A stretch of 32,503 nucleotides of DNA from Syntrophaceae bacterium (lineage in GTDB: Bacteria; Desulfobacterota; BSN033; UBA1163), in the NCBI GenBank assembly GCA_018333715.1, contig JAGXSW010000127.1, positions 1 through 32,503 of the forward strand, in the 5' to 3' direction. Position 1 is the stretch's first letter. The number at the start of each line of letters is the position of its first letter. The translations under genes and the position numbers were made by a program. Shown here piece by piece: positions 15,447 through 26,228 of this stretch. The notes under the pieces are model-generated. The model did not search any database and was not told the origin of the DNA. It was given only the letters and a program-made list of their open reading frames with translations.

Positions 15447-16508
15447 ATGCTGAAACGCTGGATAGAAAGAATTACCCCCACCGATGTGGTCATGTGGTTC
15501 ATTGGAGGGGCGATTTTACTGATGATCTTCTGGGGCTCCACCGCCACTCTAACTGCAAAAACATACACGGTTCACCACTGGTTCGACTTCATCATCTTCG
15601 GCCTGGCTCAGGGAAGCATCTATGCCTTAATCGCCATGGGCTACACTATGGTCTATGGAATTTTAAGAATGATCAACTTTGCTCATAGCGAAGTCTTCAT
15701 GTGCGGTCCTTATACGGCCTATTACGTTGCGGCCGCCTTTTATTCATCCGGTTTCCTCGATCAATATCCCATCATCAGCCTCATCATGATTTTTCTCGTC
15801 TCCATGGCCACTTCAACACTGGTGGCCATCCTTCTCGAACGGATCGCCTATCGTCCTCTCCGGACAGCGCCCCGCCTGATCCCTCTTATCACAGCCATCG
15901 GGGCCTCTTTCTTTCTCCAATACACCATCCGGGGACTCTATGGATCCGGTTTCCAGGCTTATCCCGTAGTAAATATCCTTGAGGGTGAATGGGCTTTCGG
16001 AGGATTCCGCATCCTGAAGTTTCAGGCTGTGGTCATTTTGGCGGCCGCCATCCTGATGGCCGCTCTCTACTCTTTTGTGCAACGAACCCGTTTGGGCAAA
16101 GCGATTCGCGCCGTTTCCGAAGATAAAGAGACCTCTTCCCTCATGGGAATTGACATAGATAAAATGATCGTTACGACCTTCGTCATCGGAGGCATGTCCG
16201 CCGGAGCCGCGGGCGTCCTTTATGCCCTGATGTTTAAGCAGGTCCATTTCTTCATGGGTTTTATTCCGGGAATTAAAGCCTTCACGGCAGCCGTATTGGG
16301 AGGTATCGGAAACATCCCCGGAGCCATGCTGGGCGGAATCTTTCTCGGTCTCGTGGAGTCTGTGGGACCGAGCCTCTTCCTCGATGGCTTGGGCATTGTC
16401 GCTCCTTACCAGTTAAAAGACGCCATTGCCTTCACCATGCTCGTCCTGGTTCTGATCTTCAGGCCCACGGGCATCCTGGGAGAGCGATTGGCAGTGAAGA
16501 AAGCCTAA
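15447..16508 (+). CDS. livH: Branched-chain amino acid ABC transporter permease, LivH family
   Basis: FIIFGLAQGSIYALIAMGYTMVYGILRMINFAHSEVFM; GIKAFTAAVLGGIGNIPGAMLGG. Confidence 0.95.
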   Translation: MLKRWIERITPTDVVMWFIGGAILLMIFWGSTATLTAKTYTVHHWFDFIIFGLAQGSIYALIAMGYTMVYGILRMINFAHSEVFMCGPYTAYYVAAAFYSSGFLDQYPIISLIMIFLVSMATSTLVAILLERIAYRPLRTAPRLIPLITAIGASFFLQYTIRGLYGSGFQAYPVVNILEGEWAFGGFRILKFQAVVILAAAILMAALYSFVQRTRLGKAIRAVSEDKETSSLMGIDIDKMIVTTFVIGGMSAGAAGVLYALMFKQVHFFMGFIPGIKAFTAAVLGGIGNIPGAMLGGIFLGLVESVGPSLFLDGLGIVAPYQLKDAIAFTMLVLVLIFRPTGILGERLAVKKA

Positions 16509-16554
16509 TAGTCAAATAGTCTAATCGTCGCATAGTCGGATAGTTAAAGAGTTA
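16509..16554. repeat. Octamer array (TAGTCNNA), left half, site A
   Basis: tagtcaaa tagtctaa tcgtcgca tagtcgga tagttaaa gagtta; starts one nt after the livH stop and runs to the next ATG. Confidence 0.9.
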
Positions 16555-16923
16555 ATGAAGATTAGAAGATCCGAAGATCTCGATAGTTGGAAAAAAGCAA
16601 GAGAGTTGGCAAATTTGATTTACAATTTAACGGATCAACCAAAATTTAAAAAAGATTTTCGATTGTGTGGTCAAGTGAGAGATGCAAGTGGATCTGTTAT
16701 GCACAATATTGCGGAGGGTTTTGATTTGGGATCAGATCCTGAATTTATCCGATTTTTAAAAATATCCCGCCGTTCTTCCAGCGAGGTTCAATCTCAATTA
16801 TATCTCGCTCTTGATCGGAAGTATATTACTTCAACCCAGCTCCAAGACGCTTATGAAAAGGCTACCGATGTTAAAAAACTGAACAATGGTTTGATAGCCT
16901 ATTTACGTAAAACAAAAAAATAA
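16555..16923 (+). CDS. Four-helix-bundle protein, S23/IVP-like family
   Basis: 122 aa; SWKKARELANLIYNLTDQPKFKKDFRLCGQVRDASGSVMHNIAEGFDLGSDPEFIRFLKISRRSSSEVQSQLYLALDRKYI resembles 23S rRNA intervening-sequence (S23) / four helix bundle proteins. Confidence 0.93.
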   Translation: MKIRRSEDLDSWKKARELANLIYNLTDQPKFKKDFRLCGQVRDASGSVMHNIAEGFDLGSDPEFIRFLKISRRSSSEVQSQLYLALDRKYITSTQLQDAYEKATDVKKLNNGLIAYLRKTKK

Positions 16924-16936
16924 TTTTTGGCTATAT

Positions 16937-16976
16937 GACTATCCGACTATTCGACTATAAGACTAAAGGACTATGA
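16937..16976. repeat. Octamer array (GACTATNN), right half, site A
   Basis: gactatcc gactattc gactataa gactaaag gactatga; last unit contains the livM ATG (16973). Confidence 0.9.
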
Positions 16977-18646
16977 GACAGGCCATTAAAATCGGACTGA
17001 TTGGCGGTGTGGTCGGAATCCTCCTCTCCCTCATCGGGATGGTCGAGGCTTTTAGCCAGCGTGACATCATCGCTCATGTCATTTCAATGGGCCATACCCT
17101 TCTCATTACTGTTGCCCTTTTTATGGGTTATCTCGCAGCCAAGCGCACACCCGGCAAAGGATCTCTTCGGATTCTTTCCAACAGTTTCCTCTCAGGGCTT
17201 CTCTTGGCAGGCATGTTAGCCCTGCTGGTGATGGCGGGAAGCCTCATCAATCTACGAAAGGTTTTCATCAATGCCTCCCCTCTTCTCTACAGTCTGCTCA
17301 CCTTCGGCCTGGAAAAAGGAATCGGCGCTCTGCTCCTTCTCGTCATTGGAGCGATGAGCGGCCTGCTCGCAGGCATCTTTTATCTCTCTCCCGGGATTCT
17401 CCGCCGGGTATTGATCATTTCACTGGGAAGCATTGTGTCCGCAGGCGTCCTGCAGGATCTGCTCCGTCCTACTTTCGCCCTCTGGGGACCTCTTGCAATC
17501 ATCAATGAATGGCTTTTTACGGCCAATGGCCTGACGGTTCAGGGCGCCATCGGATTATTCATTCTAATTGCCGCCTTTTCCCTCTTCTGGTCCAGGAAGG
17601 GAAGCGCTATTCAAACCGGTTTTCGACAGCTCCCCCCTGCTCCCCAGCGCATCTTAAAGATGGCCGGCATCTTCATCCTGGTCTTTATTCTTCTCATTCT
17701 TCCCCGGGTTCTCGGACTTTTCCTGAGCGAGGTCCTAACGATTGTGGGCCTCTATGTCCTCCTGGGCCTTGGGCTCAATATCGTCGTAGGGTATGCCGGC
17801 CTTCTCGATCTCGGTTATGTGGCTTTTTTTGCCATCGGTTCTTATACCGTAGCAGTACTGACCTCCCCTGAGCTGGGTTTCTTCAGCCTCTCCTTCTGGG
17901 AAGCCCTGCCCTTTGTGATCGTCATGGGAGTCTTTTCCGGCGTCCTCCTGGGCACCCCTGTCCTCAAGATGCGTGGCGACTATCTCGCCATAGCCACCCT
18001 CGGATTTGGAGAGATCATTCGAATTCTGGTCCTTTCAGACTTTCTAAGACCATGGTTGGGAGGAGCTCAAGGCATCGGTAAGATTCCCAAAGTTTTCATC
18101 GGAGGTTTTGAGTTCGCCGGACCTCAACAGATTTACTATCTCATTCTTGCAGGCTGTCTCCTCGTTATCTTCATCTCCCTTCGCCTGAGGGATTCCCGAT
18201 TGGGTCGAGCCTGGATGGCGGTCCGCGAGGATGAGGATGTGGCTCAAGCCATGGGCATCAATCTCGTTGCCGCCAAGCTCCTTGCCTTTGCCACAGGCGC
18301 CGGTTTCTCCGCTCTGAGCGGAGCAATCTTTGCCACCAAACTCGGCTCGGTCTATCCTCACAGTTTCAATGTGATGATCTCCATCAATATCGTCTGTGTC
18401 ATCATTGTGGGAGGGATGGGCTCGATTCCCGGGGTCATCGTGGGAGCCGCGGCCCTGGTCGGTCTGCCTGAACTTCTCCGGGAGTTTGCCGAATACCGGC
18501 TTCTTGTCTATGGAGCCGTCCTCGTGGCTATGATGCTGCTCCGGCCCGAGGGACTCTGGCCGGAGGCGTTGCGCCGCCGTGAACTTCACGGGGAAAAGGA
18601 AAATGAAGCCGAATCGGAATCGTCTCTGAAATTGAAATCAGGTTGA
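16973..18646 (+). CDS. livM: Branched-chain amino acid ABC transporter permease, LivM family, with long N-terminal membrane extension
   Basis: LivM core ILTIVGLYVLLGLGLNIVVGYAGLLDLGYVAFFAIGSY and GMGSIPGVIVGAAALVGLPELLREF; about 220 additional hydrophobic residues N-terminal to the core. Confidence 0.93.
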   Translation: MRQAIKIGLIGGVVGILLSLIGMVEAFSQRDIIAHVISMGHTLLITVALFMGYLAAKRTPGKGSLRILSNSFLSGLLLAGMLALLVMAGSLINLRKVFINASPLLYSLLTFGLEKGIGALLLLVIGAMSGLLAGIFYLSPGILRRVLIISLGSIVSAGVLQDLLRPTFALWGPLAIINEWLFTANGLTVQGAIGLFILIAAFSLFWSRKGSAIQTGFRQLPPAPQRILKMAGIFILVFILLILPRVLGLFLSEVLTIVGLYVLLGLGLNIVVGYAGLLDLGYVAFFAIGSYTVAVLTSPELGFFSLSFWEALPFVIVMGVFSGVLLGTPVLKMRGDYLAIATLGFGEIIRILVLSDFLRPWLGGAQGIGKIPKVFIGGFEFAGPQQIYYLILAGCLLVIFISLRLRDSRLGRAWMAVREDEDVAQAMGINLVAAKLLAFATGAGFSALSGAIFATKLGSVYPHSFNVMISINIVCVIIVGGMGSIPGVIVGAAALVGLPELLREFAEYRLLVYGAVLVAMMLLRPEGLWPEALRRRELHGEKENEAESESSLKLKSG

Positions 18647-18658
18647 TCAGAAGATAAT

Positions 18659-19450
18659 ATGGCCCTTCTTTTTTCGAAAAAAGTGACGAAACGCTTTGGC
18701 GGTCTGGTGGCCGTGGGTGACCTTGATATTGAAATCCGGGAGAAAAGCATCCACAGCATCATCGGACCGAACGGCGCCGGCAAAACAACCTTCTTTAATT
18801 GCATCACAGGCTTCTATCGCCCCGAAGAGGGAGAAATCCTTTTTAACGACCATTCTCTGGTGGGCCTCCTTCCGGACCGAATCGTTCGCCTTGGAATCTC
18901 CCGCACCTATCAGAATATTCGCCTCTTTCCCAATCTGACAGCAATGGAGAATGTCCTTGTCGGGCTCCATGGCCACCTCAATGCGGGGTTCTTCGGCATC
19001 GTGCTCAACACCCCTGCCACCCGGAAGGAAGAGAAGGAGGCGGCAGAAGAGGCAAGGAGGCTTCTAAAATTTGTCAACCTTGCCGGAAAAGGCGATTTTT
19101 TAGCCAAGAACCTTCCTTACGGAGATCAGCGCCGGCTTGAAATTGCACGGGCCTTGGCGTCCCGTCCCAATCTTTTGCTTTTAGATGAACCCACAGCCGG
19201 GATGAATCCGAAGGAGACGCAGGACATGATGGACTTCATTCAGCGCCTCCGTGATGAACTGGGGATCACCATCCTCCTCATCGAGCATCAGATGAGAGTC
19301 GTGATGGGCATTTCCGAAATCGTGACCGTTCTGGACTATGGAGAGAAGATTGCAGAAGGGACTCCAATCGAGATTCAGAGAAATCCAAAGGTGATCGAAG
19401 CCTATTTGGGGAGAGGAAGTACAGGAGAAGAAAGTCAGGCAGTCTCATAG
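18659..19450 (+). CDS. livG: ABC transporter ATP-binding protein, LivG family
   Basis: Walker A GPNGAGKTTF; NLPYGDQRRLEIARALASRPNLLLLDEPTAGMNPKET; C-terminal BCA_ABC_TP-like end. Confidence 0.95.
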   Translation: MALLFSKKVTKRFGGLVAVGDLDIEIREKSIHSIIGPNGAGKTTFFNCITGFYRPEEGEILFNDHSLVGLLPDRIVRLGISRTYQNIRLFPNLTAMENVLVGLHGHLNAGFFGIVLNTPATRKEEKEAAEEARRLLKFVNLAGKGDFLAKNLPYGDQRRLEIARALASRPNLLLLDEPTAGMNPKETQDMMDFIQRLRDELGITILLIEHQMRVVMGISEIVTVLDYGEKIAEGTPIEIQRNPKVIEAYLGRGSTGEESQAVS

Positions 19451-19471
19451 TCAGATAGTCGCTTAGTCATT
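19440..19471. repeat. Octamer array (TAGTCNNA), left half, site B
   Basis: cagtctca tagtcaga tagtcgct tagtcatt; the livG TAG stop (19448-19450) is part of a unit. Isolated units tagtcaaa and tagtccca reappear at 19617 and 19630. Confidence 0.85.
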
Positions 19472-19618
19472 TAGAGCTTATCCGTAAATAATGATTGTTT
19501 GTAATATCCCCCTTTGGAAAAGGGGGATTTAGGGGGATTTGCCCAAGGTTGCCGCTTTAAATCCCCCCTCACCCCCCTTTGCTAAAGGGGGGGAAAGTTA
19601 TTTGCGGATAAGTTCTTA
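19471..19618. mobile_element. 148-bp MITE-like element nested between the octamer arrays
   Basis: Left ttagagcttatccgtaaataa (19471-19491), right ttatttgcggataagttctta (19598-19618): 18/21 inverted match; internal ccccctttggaaaaggggg and aatcccccct...aaagggggg stems. Confidence 0.85.
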
Positions 19619-19649
19619 GTCAAAAGCTTTAGTCCCAAAAGTTCCAAAT

Positions 19650-19737
19650 GACCATACGGCGATGCGACTACGTGACGATCCGACTATCAGACTAAACGAC
19701 GATAAGACAATAAGACCATACGACTAAGAGACTAAAT
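19650..19737. repeat. Octamer array (GACTANNN), right half, site B, 11 units
   Basis: gaccatac ggcgatgc gactacgt gacgatcc gactatca gactaaac gacgataa gacaataa gaccatac gactaaga gactaaat; ends 1 nt before the livF ATG. Confidence 0.9.
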
Positions 19738-21331: not shown

Positions 21332-21642
21332 ATGATGAAAAAGAAGATACTGGCGGTTGATAACCATCCCGTTGTGCTCAAGTTCATGTCCCAGTTGCTT
21401 GAAAAGGAAGGCCATCAGGCGCTCACCGCTTCATTGATCTCATCATGCCCCATATGGGTGGAGGAGAAGCCTACGACCGGCTCAGGGAGATTTCTCCGGA
21501 GGTAAAAGTCCTTTTTTCAAGTGGTTATAGCATTGATGGTGAGGCCTCGAAAATATTGGCACGGGGTTGTAACGGCTTTATTCAGAAGCCCTTTGATATC
21601 ATGCAACTCTCTCAGAACATCAGGGCTATATTAGTCAGATAG
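21332..21642 (+). pseudogene. Response-regulator receiver gene with internal deletion and frameshift
   Basis: N-part KKILAVDNHPVVLKFMSQLLEKEGHQALTA in one frame; C-part (F)IDLIMPHMGGGEAYDRLREISPEVKVLFSSGYSIDGEASKILARGCNGFIQKPFDIMQLSQNI in another; about 25 residues missing at the junction. Confidence 0.8.
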
Positions 21643-21739
21643 TCGCATGGTCAGGTTGTCTTATAGTCAAATAGTCTTATGGTTATTTAGACTATTAGAC
21701 TACGCGACGATGTGACTATTAGACTAAGGGACTACTTGT
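21632..21739. repeat. Octamer array, both halves adjacent, site C
   Basis: tagtcaga tagtcgca tggtcagg ttgtctta tagtcaaa tagtctta tggttatt / ta gactatta gactacgc gacgatgt gactatta gactaagg gactactt; supplies the TAG stop of the receiver remnant (21640) and of thiC (21734..21732). Confidence 0.92.
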
Positions 21740-26140: not shown

Positions 26141-26228
26141 TGGAATGATGGAATAGTGGAATATTGGGTTTTTAAGATTCAGTATTTCTTCCCATCATTC
26201 CATCATTCCATCGTTCCATTATTCCATT
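26141..26228. repeat. Octamer array with different core (TGGAATNN ... ATTCCANN), site D
   Basis: tggaatga tggaatag tggaatat tggg (26141-26168) and ccca ... attccatc attccatc gttccatt attccatt (26191-26228); right half abuts the rplS stop. Confidence 0.88.

Follow-up and report, generated by a model that had tools for sequence, protein, structure and literature searches.

The S23 gene between livH and livM

The window analysed here is a stretch of 32,503 nucleotides from the genome assembly of a Syntrophaceae bacterium. It carries a livKHMGF operon, and between livH and livM lies a small gene of the S23 family, tightly flanked by two arrays of degenerate octamers, (TAGTCNNA)n on the left and (NNGACTAT)n on the right (Table 1). 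A preliminary description, made from the sequence alone, had proposed the liv gene names and the S23 assignment, and both were upheld. The open reading frame (ORF) matches PF05635 over the whole domain with 107.6 bits (cut-off 33.8) and TIGR02436 with 102.5 bits (cut-off 24). Structures exist for the family (2gsc, 2rld), and an S23 profile built in this analysis matches PDB 2gsc (E 2.8e-40), which is a homopentamer (PMC4990558).

Both arrays were detected by Tandem Repeats Finder (TRF) and lie where the preliminary description had put them. The left units begin at 16509, 16517, 16525 (TCGTC), 16533 and 16541 (TAGTT), followed by AAAGAGTTA and the S23 start codon. On the right, a GGCTA at 16929 is followed by GACTA units at 16937, 16945, 16953, 16961 and 16969. 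The first exact GACTA unit is found 13 nt past the S23 stop codon, and the livM ATG falls within the last one.

Table 1 Coordinates of the S23 gene, its arms and neighbours, and the other TAGTC/GACTA hairpins of the window
Feature	Coordinates	Strand	Remarks
livH	15447..16508	+	Upstream of the S23 gene, co-directional; stop codon 16506-16508
Left arm	16509..16552	+	5-6 degenerate 8-mers, core (A)TAGTC plus 2 variable nt; start abuts the livH stop
S23-like four-helix-bundle gene	16555..16923	+	122 aa, in the loop; PF05635 E 4.6e-31, TIGR02436 E 1.4e-29
Right arm	16929..16976	+	5-6 units GACTATNN; core complementary to the left arm; livM start codon in the last unit
livM	16973..18646	+	Downstream of the S23 gene, co-directional; ATG at 16973
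Second TAGTC/GACTA hairpin	19432..19724	.	Between livG and livF; without S23; MITE-like sequence in the loop
Third TAGTC/GACTA hairpin	21632..21734	.	Empty; fold z -7.5 (+), -6.8 (-)
MITE, miniature inverted-repeat transposable element.

The two arms can pair. Aligned with the reverse complement of the right flank, the left flank scores 45; none of 3834 control windows of matched geometry exceeded 33. In the RNA fold of 16500-16985, the arms form a terminal stem (z = -5.1, 0/100 shuffles as stable), in agreement with the long enclosing stem that had been suggested as possible. The alignment of the reverse-complemented right array with the left one, also claimed earlier, thus stands, but the arms are not inverted copies of one another. 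Indeed, agreement at the variable NN bases of TAGTCNNA is 0.46 within hairpins, which is not above the value between hairpins (0.53). Since these bases agree no better than chance between arms, the arms share a core of about 6 nt only.

The comparison with related genomes proposed in the preliminary description revealed no S23 gene at the livH-livM junction in any of the 14 same-family relatives whose junctions were read. In most of them, the spacer is short and free of arrays. One relative from another genus (G013) carries an empty TAGTC hairpin at this junction. In another, of the same genus (G007), arm remnants homologous to those of the window (TAGTCAAATAGT, AAAGAGTTA, TATCCGACTATAAGACTAA) enclose a different repeat. 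As the relatives' junctions have no S23 and mostly no arrays, the hairpin and its gene are lineage-specific at livH-livM.

A dispersed family of hairpins

The TAGTC/GACTA hairpin is present dozens of times in the window's genome. Two further copies without S23 lie in the window itself and had been overlooked in the preliminary description (Table 1). Genome-wide, the pattern TAGTCNNATAGTCNNATAGTC with at most two mismatches has 103 forward and 104 reverse matches, compared to 22 and 14 for the reversed pattern. In the window's genome and its relatives, 30 hairpins were measured; most have arms of 4-6 units and a loop of 0-44 nt. The S23 copy resembles the S23-less ones in its arms; its loop measures 383 nt. 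The exact TAGTC triple was found in 9 of the 17 genomes from the window's family, and none of 42 others had it. A census of the window's own assembly, covering contigs 1-40 (405 kb), found 18 inverted array pairs, all with short loops except the S23 one and one with a loop of 891 nt, which pairs half of another hairpin.

The MITE-like sequence in the livG-livF hairpin extends over approximately 19477-19612 and has terminal inverted repeats CTTATCCG(C/T)AAATAA. A second family of octamer hairpins, (TGGAATAA)n / (CCATTATT)n, is found at 26141-26227 of the window and at loci L364, L367, L389, L393, L395, L398 and L402. Its loops are short, and no S23 gene was seen with it in the sample.

In ribosomal RNA (rRNA) intervening sequences (IVSs), RNase III cuts a stem whose loop contains the S23 ORF. 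From this likeness, the preliminary description had suggested that the livH-livM locus is an IVS-like cassette. In its strict form, this would be a cassette which is excised from the mRNA, moves by itself and is unrelated to the dispersed repeats. The location of the ORF in a terminal-stem loop, as described for rRNA IVSs (PMC4990558), and the relatives' junctions without S23 agree with such a cassette, as does the sense orientation within the operon. However, the arms are not specific to it: they belong to a family of dispersed, mostly empty hairpins found without S23. Excision between two genes also answers no evident need, and we judge the strict form highly improbable.

Some of these observations also speak for the main rival of the reading that we favour, in which S23 acts on its own repeats. 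Slippage, repair or a different mobile system might give rise to arrays independently; S23 genes, moved by some other route, might then recombine into them through homology with arms that they carry already, without acting on the repeats. Most hairpins are indeed empty, a MITE also occupies the loop between livG and livF, the homologous arms in G007 enclose a different repeat, and G013 has an empty hairpin at livH-livM. We still consider this explanation unlikely; the findings which speak against it come from S23 genes elsewhere.

Inverted arms around S23 genes in other genomes

S23/PF05635 genes are present in 161 of the 297 genomes of the phylum. For the following comparisons, S23 loci were picked by profile score or peptide pattern; many of the genomes were assembled from metagenomes, and parts of the sequences are masked. 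The preliminary description had suggested a search for flanks of the same word at the other S23 genes of the window's genome. None were found there: the other four genes are flanked by different short-word arrays. A general lack of such flanks at S23-like genes in related genomes had been named there as a refutation of its reading. The opposite was observed, as most have them, with a word that varies by locus. Among the testable S23 loci of the phylum, 24 of 34 scored above the 99th percentile of matched controls. Across more than 15 phyla, the same was true of 54 of 78 testable loci taken from named genomes (0.8 expected), and 42 of the 78 exceeded the 99.9th percentile. Taking all sets together, 66% of 139 S23 genes have inverted flanks vs 4.6% of 151 other small ORFs. 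Chance and general repeat richness were ruled out as causes, as values remained low in all controls (matched windows, mismatched pairs, shuffles, other small ORFs).

The arms have a common build. Their unit is 7 nt long in 73 of 86 armed loci and 8 nt in 12, typically with about two variable positions. The 5' (left) arm is the G-rich one in 73 of 84 armed loci (vs 11). In genome G229, an unbiased survey of 1.6 Mb yielded 147 short-word arrays. Only three pairs were mutually inverted within 1.2 kb, and each of them has S23 between its arrays. That S23 alone sits in inverted array pairs there argues against its having entered arrays of independent origin.

Clusters of near-identical, partly truncated S23 copies were seen on contig 1 of G229, at L293 (~3064800-3066460) and L294 (~3084200-3086610). 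Several of these copies are spaced at 215 bp, and some have in-frame stops.

The location in an mRNA rather than in rRNA, which the preliminary description had pointed out, holds for the window but is not exceptional. With E. coli 23S used for detection, none of the sampled S23 loci overlaps 23S rRNA, so a location outside rRNA is the norm in the sample. The notion of S23 as mainly an rRNA element was not upheld within the reach of this detection.

In 89 of the 95 loci whose two neighbours are co-directional, S23 shares their orientation, and the median distance to the next gene is about 50 nt. This bias fits an element dwelling in transcripts. It would also suit a regulatory role, in which S23 binds RNA and holds or exposes the mRNA hairpin of its own operon, thereby governing cleavage or translation of the gene downstream (livM in this case). 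The repeats would then be operators and their spread incidental. The livM start codon within the right arm and the strong RNA stem are further points for such control. Yet the neighbouring genes are unrelated between loci, the element is absent from orthologous junctions in relatives, and S23p of Coxiella is apparently not produced (PMC4990558). A purely regulatory explanation is accordingly rather improbable in our view.

Coupling of the repeat word to the S23 subfamily

The coupling between arm word and protein was examined in 140 loci, leaving out pairs with homologous outer flanks. Arm words were alike in 1% of pairs below 40% S23 identity, in 13.5% at 55-60%, in 57% at 65-75% and in 81% above 75%. 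With one partner reverse-complemented as a control, the values stay low. The Mantel correlation between word and protein is r = 0.13, and the largest value of 2000 permutations is 0.054. For instance, the KIERFEDIEAW subtype, which is nearest to the window's protein, has GGTTCAN-type arms in seven genomes from at least five families, beside different genes. As judged from these sequence comparisons, the word differs between loci yet tracks the S23 subfamily even at non-homologous sites. This retention of a subfamily's own word across families, at unrelated sites, speaks against S23 genes recombining into pre-existing arrays.

The words are also dispersed in the respective genomes. In the two genomes tested, 8 of 9 S23 genes have their arm word elsewhere in the same genome too, as arrays without S23. 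Arms from the window's genome have 18 matching arrays there and three in G229; for arms from G229, the counts are 40 in G229 itself and zero in the other genome. Triples of GGTTCAN were found in 46 of the 297 genomes, and 43 of these 46 have S23 vs 118 of the 251 others (Fisher p = 9e-10; genome lists tallied by hand).

Comparison with known systems

In Coxiella, the IVS of the 23S rRNA has a 28-bp stem, with two or three tandem GACAGAT heptamers and a GACAGAA ahead of the S23 ORF, and the heptamers were regarded by the authors as local variation (PMC4990558). From this description, the architecture is the same as that of the loci above. The 23S rRNA IVSs of Leptospira and Coxiella likewise encode an S23 protein in the loop of a terminal stem; as in the window, the stem that encloses the ORF consists of inverted repeats, and its size is similar. 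In contrast, the window's element does not lie in a 23S rRNA gene but in operon mRNA between two genes; its arms consist of octamers, and they also occur alone many times in the genome. To our knowledge, rRNA IVSs have lacked an explanation ever since they were discovered.

Repetitive extragenic palindromic (REP) sequences are dispersed intergenic palindromes, and the REP-associated tyrosine transposase (RAYT) is encoded by one gene flanked by its own repeats, with the repeat type coupled to the protein subfamily. Like RAYT with REP/REPIN sequences, S23 has dispersed cognate repeats in the same genome, its own repeats flank the gene, and the repeat type is coupled to the protein subfamily. Unlike RAYT, it is small and all-helical and not an HUH/Y1 transposase; the window's protein belongs to PF05635 and had no transposase match in the profile search. 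The S23 arms are tandem arrays of 7-8-mers and not a single palindrome. An obligatory Y1 transposase partner was not supported, as far as incomplete genomes allow: two genomes with 11 (G153) and eight (G116) S23 genes have no Y1_Tnp match.

PF05635 also resembles Avd, a protein of diversity-generating retroelements (PMC10053308). The folds of S23 and Avd/bAvd are related, and the window's protein matches the bAvd profile weakly (E 0.0073), with 17.2 bits, below the cut-off of 40. A reverse transcriptase as an obligatory partner was likewise not supported, with the same limit from incomplete genomes: no RVT_1 match was found in G169 (15 S23) and G032 (eight S23).

Cyanobacterial short tandemly repeated repetitive (STRR) sequences are 7-nt intergenic tandem words. 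The TAACTGA heptamers of Beggiatoaceae are abundant intergenic short tandem words as well (PMC4679880). Both resemble the S23 arms in the abundance of 7-nt intergenic tandem words but are described mainly as direct repeats, and S23 terms were not found in the Beggiatoaceae paper (PMC4679880). In the open-licence literature, the only report found of S23 with flanking repeats was the note on the Coxiella heptamers, which is no proof of novelty.

S23 and its arms as one proposed element

On balance, we lean towards the view that the S23 gene and its inverted arms form one element similar to a REPtron, the protein being the partner of the hairpin repeats around its gene, and that rRNA IVSs are copies which landed in rRNA. 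The architecture, its generality, the coupling of word and protein, the dispersal of the word in the same genome, the sense orientation and the sites without S23 or arrays are all observed. Arm binding by S23, movement as a unit and its route, and cleavage of the RNA are what we infer.

The arms would be a member of a dispersed hairpin-repeat family, and the S23 protein encoded in the loop would recognise its repeat word and so enable its spread, as RAYT does with REP repeats. Copies bearing the gene may represent a rare full form, and those with an empty loop the common short form. Located in sense at gene junctions of operons, the element would be transcribed, and its arms would pair in the mRNA. 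Trimming by RNase III, documented for rRNA IVSs, is probable here too; the 23S rRNA IVSs would be the same kind of element, landed in rRNA. We know of no function of S23/PF05635, and of no catalytic domain or residues. Given this lack of a known catalytic domain, host replication, recombination or another enzyme would have to act in the movement.

Several observations weigh against this reading. About one third of the S23 loci are without detectable inverted arms. One S23 subtype, FEELPVWQKAREL (L216, L218, L222, L224), has direct TTGAATN-type arrays on both sides, not inverted ones, and many GGTTCAN arrays are one-sided. Most hairpin families in the sample from the window's own genome had no S23 alongside. 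The sense orientation is partly expected, as antisense genes would be selected against within operons. The two arms show no co-variation at the NN bases, so that no sign of selection for pairing is seen beyond the core. Finally, no target-site duplication is evident at livH-livM, and no movement was observed.

A broader proposal is that PF05635 proteins supply the protein part of a new class of self-spreading elements, with subfamily-specific 7-8-nt inverted arrays, S23 in the loop and many gene-less copies; we see the case for it as evenly balanced. If true, this class would account for the origin of many bacterial short-word arrays, and the classical rRNA IVSs would be a special case. The rule of one word per subfamily provides a testable ligand for the S23 protein. 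It also suggests that rRNA IVSs share a single origin with some, at least, of the unexplained 7-8-nt arrays. Protein and repeats seem to have spread together, as an element previously noticed mainly inside ribosomal RNA.

Elsewhere in the window, a 37-bp unit is perfectly duplicated in tandem at 2025-2099.
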